From: Desulfobacterales bacterium
Lineage (GTDB): Bacteria > Desulfobacterota > Desulfobacteria > Desulfobacterales > Desulfosalsimonadaceae
Direction: 5' to 3'
DNA: 64,000 bases
Assembly: GCA_018335195.1 (NCBI GenBank)
Contig: JAGXKN010000014.1
Location: forward strand, 1-64,000
Position numbers and translations under genes: made by a program. The notes below the pieces were generated by a model, which saw nothing but the letters and a program-made list of their open reading frames with translations, did no database searches and was not told where the DNA came from. Numbering within the stretch: the stretch's first letter is position 1; every line of letters starts with the position of its first letter. This document shows, piece by piece, positions 51,335-54,004 of this stretch.

Positions 51335-52465
51335 TTATCGCGTTTTTATGGATCCGGAGCCAACCGGCTCGTCTTCGATCTCCGAATGCGGCATCGTCGG
51401 GCCGGGTGTTTCATTGCCCAGCATTACCGCCAGCCAGCGGGTTTCCGGGTTGCTTTCCATGGCGATCTTAAAGATCATGGTCAGCGGCACTGACAGGAGC
51501 ATGCCCACCGGGCCCAGCACCCATCCCCAGAAAACCAGGGAGAGAAATACCACCAGCGTGGAAAGTCCCAGCCCGCTGCCCATGAATCGGGGCTCAAGAA
51601 AGTTTCCGATGGCCATGTTCACCGCCACAAATCCGGCTGAGCAAAGCGCGGCCGGCCAGAGACCCAGCTGGGCCAGGGCCAGCAGGACGGGGGGCACGGC
51701 GGCGATAATCGAGCCGATATTGGGCACGTAATTGAGCAGAAACGCCAGCAGTCCCCAGAGCAGGGCAAAATCTAGGCCAAGCACCGACAGCCAGATCCAG
51801 ATCAACAGGCCGGTCAGCACGCTGAGCAGGGTTTTGATGGCCAGGTATCGGTTGACACTCCGGGTAAAGCGCCTGTAATTGTAAAGGGATTTTTCCGGGG
51901 CCTTGAACGCGTTTCGGATTTTTTCCGGAAAGCCGGCCGCCTCCAGCAGGATGAAAATCACGGTGAGAATGATCAGAAAGGCGTTGGTCAGCGCGCTGCT
52001 GAGCCCGGTCAGGGTGCGGGCGGCCATCTGCATGGCCATGCCGGGATCCAGGTACTCGCGGACCATTTGTTCGCTGACATTTACTCCGTGCGCATTTAGC
52101 CATACAATCAGTTTTCTCAGCTCCTCCATCAAGTTTGACTGGTAAGAAGGCAAAGCAGCGGTGAACTGGGCCACGGATCCGCCCAGAAACTGGACCAGCA
52201 GCGTTCCCAGCGCCAGAATGACAGCCATTATAAATGCAATGGAAAGGATCTTGGGCACCCCTTTTTCCTGCATCCAGAACATGGGCGGGGTAAAAATAAT
52301 GCCGACGAACACCGAAAGCAGAAACGGCACCAGGATGCCAGCAGATGCGCGCATGCCCGCGACAATGACCACAAAGCATGCTGCACCGATTAAGAATCGG
52401 ATTTCTCGGGATAATAGGTTGGGCGCTTCCATGGCGAAAGTCCGGGATTGAGCGATTTTATTCAT
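51335..52465 (-). CDS. AI-2E family transporter (PerM/YdiK-like)
   Basis: The 376-residue membrane protein has the family halves: an N-terminal helix pair (FVVIVAGMRASAGILVPFLL) and the conserved C-terminal region (LVFWGWVLGPVGMLLSVPLT). Also present is LLNYVPNIGSIIAAVPPVLL. The family includes the AI-2 exporter TqsA, sodium/proton antiporters and permeases of unknown cargo, so the function stays open. The ATG at 52465 is chosen among several; 52432 is an alternative. Divergent from the DUF1573 gene. Confidence 0.86.
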   Translation of the reverse strand: MNKIAQSRTFAMEAPNLLSREIRFLIGAACFVVIVAGMRASAGILVPFLLSVFVGIIFTPPMFWMQEKGVPKILSIAFIMAVILALGTLLVQFLGGSVAQFTAALPSYQSNLMEELRKLIVWLNAHGVNVSEQMVREYLDPGMAMQMAARTLTGLSSALTNAFLIILTVIFILLEAAGFPEKIRNAFKAPEKSLYNYRRFTRSVNRYLAIKTLLSVLTGLLIWIWLSVLGLDFALLWGLLAFLLNYVPNIGSIIAAVPPVLLALAQLGLWPAALCSAGFVAVNMAIGNFLEPRFMGSGLGLSTLVVFLSLVFWGWVLGPVGMLLSVPLTMIFKIAMESNPETRWLAVMLGNETPGPTMPHSEIEDEPVGSGSIKTR

Positions 52466-52486
52466 ACATTTCAGTACCTGTTTATC

Positions 52487-52514
52487 AGAAAGCCTGCCAG
52501 CCGGCAAGCTTTCT
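52487..52514. other. Imperfect hairpin in the divergent region before the DUF1573 gene
   Basis: AGAAAGC-C-TGCC and GGCA-A-GCTTTCT form an 11-bp stem with one mismatch around AGCC. It lies just upstream of the DUF1573 promoter at 52524-52552 and about 20 bases upstream of the divergent start codon, so it may be an operator or mRNA structure. Confidence 0.35.
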
Positions 52515-52523
52515 GTGCTGCAC

Positions 52524-52552
52524 TTGACATCCGGCGCGGGATCACTTATTAC
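52524..52552 (+). promoter_or_regulatory. Sigma-70-type promoter of the DUF1573 selenoprotein candidate
   Basis: TTGACA (52524-52529), exactly 17 bases, TATTAC (52547-52552). Transcription would start near 52559, leaving about 80 bases before the ATG at 52638, which has GAGGAG seven bases upstream. This shows the gene has intact expression signals. Confidence 0.65.
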
Positions 52553-52637
52553 CCTTCAGAAGGGTCAGCCGGTAACGCGGCATGGCCGAGCAGAACCCTG
52601 GTTTTTCAACAGATGGATGGATAAAGAGGAGACCCGC

Positions 52638-53372
52638 ATGATTCGAAGGAAAATTCCGCTGGCGGTGTGTTTGGCCGCCCTGATGGCGCTTCTGGGCGCA
52701 ATTGCGGCCCTGGCCGGTTCGGATGCCGCAGGGGAGCCCAGGACGGTGGTTAAACATCCGAAGCATGATTTCGGCAGTGTGTATGCAGGCACGGATATCA
52801 CGCATACATTCAATATTGAAAACGCCGGAGACACCCCCCTGCACCTCAAGTCGGTGCGCAGCGGGTGAGGATGCACCACGGTCGGGAAAACCGACCGGAT
52901 CCCCCCGGGCGGGCAGGGATACGTCAAGGTCAAAGTCAGCACGAGTCTTTCAGATGGCGGCAGGAAATTAAGCAAAACGGTTACAGTAACAACCGACGAC
53001 CCGAATCATTCCCGGCAGCGGCTGTTAATTTCCGGGCAGGTCAAGCCCTATATCACAGTTGCGCCCCGCCGGGTGGTTTTGCGCGGCAGAGCCGGCGAAA
53101 AGATTTCCGAGACCGTCCGGATCATCCCGCAGACTGATGACCCTTTTCATATCAGGGATGTTTCGGCCATACGGGGCGTGGATGTGCGTTATACGCTGGA
53201 AGAGGTTGAAGAATCCGGGAAAAAGGGCTACGCCCTGCACCTGGAAAATCGGAGAAAGACCCCGGGCCGGTACCACGATTCCATTCACGTGAAAACCGAC
53301 AGTGACGTGGCCGAAACCATTACCATCGCAGTGGGCGGCGTAATTCTGGCATCCGAAGAACAGAGGGAATAG
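52638..53372 (+). CDS. DUF1573 protein, candidate selenoprotein with in-frame UGA
   Basis: Reading TGA 52866-52868 as selenocysteine (residue 77), the frame gives 244 residues: signal peptide (LAVCLAALMALLGAIAALAG), then a DUF1573 domain with HPKHDFGSVYAGTDITHTF, NIENAGDTPLHLKSVRSG, U, GCTTVGK, and TVTVTTDDPNHSRQRLL. Family members have Cys-Gly-Cys where this has U-Gly-Cys. The 167 codons after the TGA hold no stop and continue the same fold, with an additional C-terminal domain (ITVAPRRVVLRGRAG and onward). A SECIS-like hairpin follows the TGA. The protein would be periplasmic. An alternative is a nonsense mutation of TGC or TGT to TGA; intact promoter, ribosome site and 3' half argue against it. 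Confidence 0.78.
52866..52902 (+). promoter_or_regulatory. Candidate bacterial SECIS element with UGA codon
   Basis: TGA (52866-52868) is followed by a lower stem GGAT (52869-52872) with ATCC (52899-52902), an internal bulge, an upper stem CGGTCGG (52879-52885) with CCGACCG (52891-52897), and apical loop GAAAA. The loop begins with G and starts 17 bases after the TGA. Bacterial SECIS elements have the apical loop about 16-37 bases from the UGA, a 4-16-bp upper stem and a G among the first two loop bases; all conditions are met. Confidence 0.72.
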
Positions 53373-53380
53373 GCAGCAGT

Positions 53381-54004
53381 ATGGCAAATTTCAAGGTGAT
53401 CGCCTTTGACTGTGACGGCGTGATGTTTGACACGCAAAAGGCCAACCGCACCTATTACAACGATATCCTGGCGTATCTGGACAAGCCGCCCATGACAGAC
53501 AAGCAGTTCGCCTATTGCCAGATGGCCACCGCAGACCAGGCCTTGGCTTACCTGGTTCCGGATGAACACGAGTTTGCCGCAGCCCAGGCGTTTCGCAAAA
53601 AACAGGGCTACGGCCCCTATATCCGGTATATGCAGATGGCACCGGACCTGGTCGATGTGCTGGCCTGGTGCCGCCCCGGCCTGAAGACCGCGATTGCCAC
53701 GAACCGGGCCGATACCATGAACCGGGTGCTGACGGAACACGGGCTGGACGGGTATTTCGATCTCGTGGTCACTGCCCTGGACGTGGGAAATCCCAAGCCC
53801 CACCCGGAGCAATTGATACGGATTATCGATGTTTTCCGGGTTCGGCCTGAGGAAGTACTTTATATCGGCGATTCTTCGGTTGACCAGGAAGCCGCCCGGT
53901 CAGCCGGGGTCGTGCTGGCGGCCTGCTGCAATCGCGATATGGCGGCCGACTACCATATTGATCGGCTCGGCGAGATCAAGGCCATTGCCGCCGGCCCCTC
54001 ATGA
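53381..54004 (+). CDS. HAD-superfamily phosphatase (phosphoglycolate phosphatase-like)
   Basis: The 207-residue HAD hydrolase has motif I VIAFDCDGVMFDT (nucleophile Asp and DxD), motif II Thr/Asn in IATNRADTMN, motif III Lys in GNPKPHPEQLI and motif IV YIGDSSVDQEAARSAG. A helical cap lies between I and II. It dephosphorylates a small metabolite, perhaps phosphoglycolate, but the substrate is not fixed by the sequence. It begins nine bases after the DUF1573 stop and may share its transcript. polA follows by 35 bases. Confidence 0.88.
   Translation: MANFKVIAFDCDGVMFDTQKANRTYYNDILAYLDKPPMTDKQFAYCQMATADQALAYLVPDEHEFAAAQAFRKKQGYGPYIRYMQMAPDLVDVLAWCRPGLKTAIATNRADTMNRVLTEHGLDGYFDLVVTALDVGNPKPHPEQLIRIIDVFRVRPEEVLYIGDSSVDQEAARSAGVVLAACCNRDMAADYHIDRLGEIKAIAAGPS

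Follow-up and report, generated by a model that had tools for sequence, protein, structure and literature searches.

It is very probable, on comparison with homologous sequences, that the UGA at 52866 in the stretch analysed here is a selenocysteine (Sec) codon and that the gene containing it belongs to the OS_HP2 family of DUF1573 selenoproteins. The stretch, called the window below, comprises positions 1 to 64,000 of contig JAGXKN010000014.1 from a Desulfobacterales bacterium (assembly GCA_018335195.1). The comparative evidence in effect settles how the codon is read, and it prevents a family already described from being announced as new. It also yields two testable leads: hairpins that lack the expected apical G, and a frequent neighbouring gene for a HAD-family hydrolase.

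The gene and its family

An earlier note, made from the DNA letters alone, had placed the frame correctly to the base. It opens at ATG 52638, is interrupted only by the TGA at 52866-52868, and continues for 167 sense codons to the TAA at 53370-53372. If the TGA specifies Sec, at codon 77, the frame (52638-53372) encodes 244 residues. Base composition alone would leave 167 codons open with a probability of about 0.0014. Homology outweighs these odds, because the DUF1573 match (E 2.3e-19, residues 38-135) spans the TGA. When the whole window was scanned for further TGA-joined frames there were many candidates, mostly overlapping longer open reading frames.

The note had also described an intact promoter and ribosome site. 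The ribosome site stands (GAGGAG, Table 1), and the promoter is unconfirmed: a sigma-70 scan of 52400-53450 gave no site on the + strand and a single one on the - strand, which is weak evidence either way. By eye, the N-terminus combines a basic and a hydrophobic segment in the manner of an export signal, and this segment probably takes the protein out of the cytoplasm.

Table 1. Features of the OS_HP2 locus, in window coordinates
Feature	Positions	Strand	Basis
OS_HP2-family (DUF1573) selenoprotein gene, 244 residues	52638..53372	+	frame, profiles, homologue alignment, dN/dS
Ribosome-binding site GAGGAG, 6 nt 5′ of ATG	52626..52631	+	by eye
Probable export signal, about residues 1-26	52638..52715	+	by eye; predicted helix 8-25
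DUF1573 domain, residues 38-135	52749..53042	+	Pfam PF07610, E 2.3e-19
UGA, read as selenocysteine 77, position one of U-G-C motif	52866..52868	+	TGA/TGC/TGT alternation at column
SECIS-like hairpin	52869..52902	+	fold and family comparison
Second beta-sandwich domain, about residues 138-238	53049..53351	+	two-sequence AlphaFold2 model and conserved alignment sites
HAD-family hydrolase gene, 8 bp after OS_HP2 gene stop	53381..54004	+	Pfam, neighbour comparison

The protein scores 119.5 bits against NCBIfam NF041425, 'OS_HP2 family (seleno)protein', where the curated cut-off is 100, and it matches Pfam PF22544 (HYDIN/CFA65/VesB-like Ig) with an E value of 2.9e-10. The suggestion that this might be a new selenoprotein family therefore fails. 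A table in PMC2398784 (2008) already lists OS_HP2 under pfam07610 with the motif UxC. Table rows in PMC9312934 (2022) and PMC13188914 (2026) list a 'DUF1573 domain-containing protein' with the motif UGC, and both credit Zhang and Gladyshev 2007, a study of the Olavius algarvensis symbiont. The family has thus been in print since about 2007, and the gene is a further member. It exceeds the NF041425 cut-off, has an in-frame UGA opening a UGC motif, and aligns with Cys homologues. Nothing sets it apart except that its hairpin lies one base off the register of most members examined across the order.

The family is widespread in the order. Its profile is matched in 343 of 389 sampled genomes, 320 of them above the cut-off, and among the best 150 matches listed, 138 have one TGA and 12 have none. 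In the window's own family, 31 of 36 genomes match P0001. One genome, G247 (L067, L095, L104, L109, L112), carries seven copies of the gene; six have a TGA, and two share a single contig stretch (L104).

Decoding of the UGA

The whole Sec pathway is encoded in the host genome, an assembly of 3.29 Mb in 99 contigs that is 99.7% complete. The proposed check for selA, selB, selC and selD found all four: selA, selB and selD score above their curated cut-offs, and the tRNA-Sec has the anticodon tca. The host selD (L019, contig C87) has an in-frame TGA of its own (...SGUAAKLG...), at what we take to be the classical Sec site of SelD.

In the homologue alignment the TGA falls exactly on the first Cys of the C-G-C motif, as the earlier note had proposed. 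Of 102 entries (101 loci), 79 have TGA here, 20 have TGC and 3 have TGT, with no fourth codon. These proportions do not measure frequency, because the entries were partly selected for having or lacking the TGA. Thirty of them (L022-L051) are the best matches to a selenoprotein model, 20 stretches were picked for having no internal stop, and another set was picked for a TGA; L052 is the window gene itself, and L078 and L083 are one gene. The predicted alternation of Cys and TGA is thus borne out. On a maximum-likelihood tree with 76 Sec and 20 Cys rows (96 in all), built with the Sec/Cys site masked, Sec and Cys interchange at least six times, and three of these changes are forced by well-supported branches. 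The Cys-type proteins have the same domain and the same column, with C-G-C, A-C or C-C-G in place of U-G-C. Their genes have TGC or TGT instead of TGA, mostly without the hairpin described below.

A scan of contigs returned one relative, which is also the nearest named one: L001, from Desulfobacteraceae bacterium isolate Tobar14m-G18, with a TGA at the same place. The two proteins align without gaps and are identical at 210 of 244 residues (86%). They share 63 of the 76 residues that precede the TGA (dN 0.081, dS 0.291) and 146 of the 167 that follow it (dN 0.069, dS 0.233). The dN/dS ratios, about 0.28 and about 0.29, are nearly equal, so purifying selection acts on the two sides of the TGA to a similar degree.

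These data bear directly on whether the TGA is a true stop, in a gene that is truncated or has become a pseudogene, or else a sequencing error within a normal Cys gene. A one-base change would turn TGC or TGT into TGA, and decay does appear close by: two genomes of the same genus, G324 and G305, each have a DUF1573 copy (L102 and L103, which agree in the stretch used) in which two more in-frame TGAs accompany the one at the Sec column, and these copies look truncated or decaying. Against this, genomes throughout the order share a TGA at this column, constraint is alike on its two sides, and the machinery for Sec is present in the genome, all of which makes a stop or an error very improbable. 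More improbable still is that the UGA is read as another amino acid by general recoding or suppression. An open frame does not by itself say which residue is inserted, and nothing specific to such a reading was found. All 23 entries that lack the TGA have Cys at the aligned position, the genome encodes the whole Sec pathway, and a hairpin is enriched in the UGA genes. The main proposal of the earlier note, an exported DUF1573 protein with Sec at the first Cys of its motif, is now supported by the alternation, the hairpin and the sel genes. Of the observations that the note had named as refuting it, those open to a check here did not turn up.

The hairpin after the UGA

The hairpin just 3′ of the UGA at 52866 would recruit SelB with Sec-tRNA, and Sec would then be inserted at residue 77 to give the 244-residue protein, a step that the comparison strongly supports. 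In the window, the 7-bp upper stem pairs 52879-52885 with 52891-52897, and the apical loop GAAAA (52886-52890) starts 17 nt after the UGA. A fold of 42 nt adds a 4-bp lower stem (52869-52872 with 52899-52902) and reaches -16 kcal/mol (z -1.96; 4 of 200 shuffled sequences equal or exceed this stability). A 45-nt fold keeps the upper stem and does not form the lower one; in that fold the z value against synonymous recoding is -2.4. The model of a bacterial SECIS element in PMC13188914 has a stem of 4-16 bp and a loop of 3-9 nt with a G within its first two positions; it lies 16-37 nt from the UGA and has a minimum free energy of -7.5 or lower. The same review states that a subset of genes fails it. 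The window hairpin fits this model (5-nt loop, 7 bp, 17 nt, -16 kcal/mol), although its loop G precedes A, where G or U is commoner. For the window copy, then, the geometry claimed by the earlier note stands, with the lower stem confined to the 42-nt fold.

Across the family, a hairpin is frequent after the UGA and infrequent after the Cys codons. Tests were made on 98 distinct, mutually related 60-nt stretches (76 from Sec genes and 22 from Cys genes). Fold energy relative to synonymous recoding has a mean z of -1.36 in Sec genes and -0.12 in Cys genes (p = 7e-6, with rows that are not independent). When the best of nine registers is taken for each group, six or all seven of the stem pairs form in 51 of the 76 Sec genes and in one of the 22 Cys genes. 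Unbroken hairpins of at least 5 bp occur in 69/76 and 7/22, and those of -6 kcal/mol or better in 51/76 and 0/22. The loop starts 16-18 nt after the UGA in 65 of the 69 family hairpins.

The apical G is another matter, and as a general feature it does not hold. It is absent from the first two loop positions in 59 of the 69 hairpins and present in only 10; L001 has C where the window has it. When a G was required in the first two loop positions, under limits that we set ourselves (a stem of 4 bp or more, a loop of 3-14, an energy of -3 kcal/mol or better), 39 of 76 Sec genes had such a hairpin, where shuffled sequences averaged 32.5 (sd 3.9); for the Cys genes the figures were 6 of 22 and 7.6. 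The loop also encodes protein, and its sequence is therefore not free to vary.

The position of the hairpin varies slightly. One register is shared by 52 of the 76 Sec genes; nine others, mostly from the window's genus, are shifted by one base, nine are off by about a codon, and six fit no register well by the rule used. Alignment A1 holds the window and 51 of the 52 genes whose best register is 47, and its pair counts lean towards structure because it was preselected for one register. There, both partners of a pair have changed in 27 cells (shuffles, 8.8), and pairing falls from 84% to at most 53% when one strand is slid along the other by 1-3 bases. Two of five pair measures in A1 are not above shuffles: pairs with double changes (5; shuffles, 4.0) and further pair types (14; shuffles, 13.3).

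Either this group has a different class of SECIS element, or the contact usually made by the loop lies elsewhere. We regard it as possible, though somewhat doubtful, that the OS_HP2 genes of the order form a distinct class in which SelB would respond to some feature besides the classical apical G. On this reading selection would act on the shape and position of the hairpin, which keeps its place while its register shifts, and not on the sequence of its loop. In the available text of the literature searched, which did not extend to the original 2007 description, we found no mention of OS_HP2 apical loops lacking G. Rfam RF00031 (SECIS_1) has no match in the host genome and none in the control genomes either; we take it to be the eukaryotic element, and the result says nothing on bacterial SECIS elements.

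The U-G-C site and the neighbouring genes

A sequence search of the PDB gave no solved relative, only weak matches to imidazoleglycerol-phosphate dehydratase (E 0.22-0.38). The best AlphaFold2 model, made from a two-sequence alignment, has a pLDDT of 73.9 and a pTM of 0.50 (the other four models, 43-66). It has two beta-sandwich domains, with residues 76-78 in a turn between strands 68-75 and 79-84. In this low-confidence model, the protein would present Sec77-Gly-Cys79 in a turn between two strands of its first domain. The top PDB matches in Foldseek are domains of ciliary central-pair proteins, at whole-model TM scores of 0.32-0.40 (ranks 1-24) and large rmsd; rank 21 is 2qsv, a bacterial protein of unknown function. 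This agrees with the HYDIN-like Ig match in Pfam. Unlike the HYDIN/CFA65/VesB-like domains that it resembles in these two respects, the window protein is short and has a probable export signal and a U-G-C site.

What the site does can be read from its residues in more than one way. We lean slightly towards a thiol/disulfide redox site in which Sec77 and Cys79 would form a reversible selenenylsulfide, the simplest role for such a pair in an exported protein. Cys79 is present in 97 of the 102 entries. Four of the five entries without it are of the Cys type and have a Cys at 76; the fifth, L075, is a Sec form with U-G-L and has a Cys at neither position, and it does not fit a Sec-Cys pair in every family member. 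That L075 keeps its Sec without Cys79, and that the four Cys-type entries have Cys76 instead, is consistent with a selenoprotein whose U-G-C site binds a metal or metalloid and does no thiol redox chemistry. A U-x-C turn on an Ig-like scaffold, which is no known redox-enzyme fold, might also suit a soft metal. Yet no metal-resistance family is prominent among the scanned neighbours, of which an AI-2E-type permease, PriA and the HAD hydrolase are the commonest, though neighbour function is weak evidence. Metal or metalloid binding is the main alternative to the redox site and the less likely of the two.

The neighbourhood itself is partly conserved, which supports orthology. The upstream scan covered 47 of the 61 loci (L001 and L022-L081). 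An AI-2E-type permease, which the window also has, stands there in 16 of the 47, and a protein matching the PriA C-terminal domain in 15. Downstream, the window order is the OS_HP2 gene, 8 bp, the HAD gene and then polA. The downstream scan took in 39 of the 61 loci, picked for a close open reading frame on the same strand; in the other 22 the contig is cut, the open reading frame is on the opposite strand or none was chosen, and the HAD link is therefore not universal. Among the 39 scanned neighbours, 37 are orthologous HAD_2 hydrolases. Beyond the window's genus, and leaving aside the two non-HAD neighbours, these downstream proteins are 45-57% identical to the HAD protein of the window.
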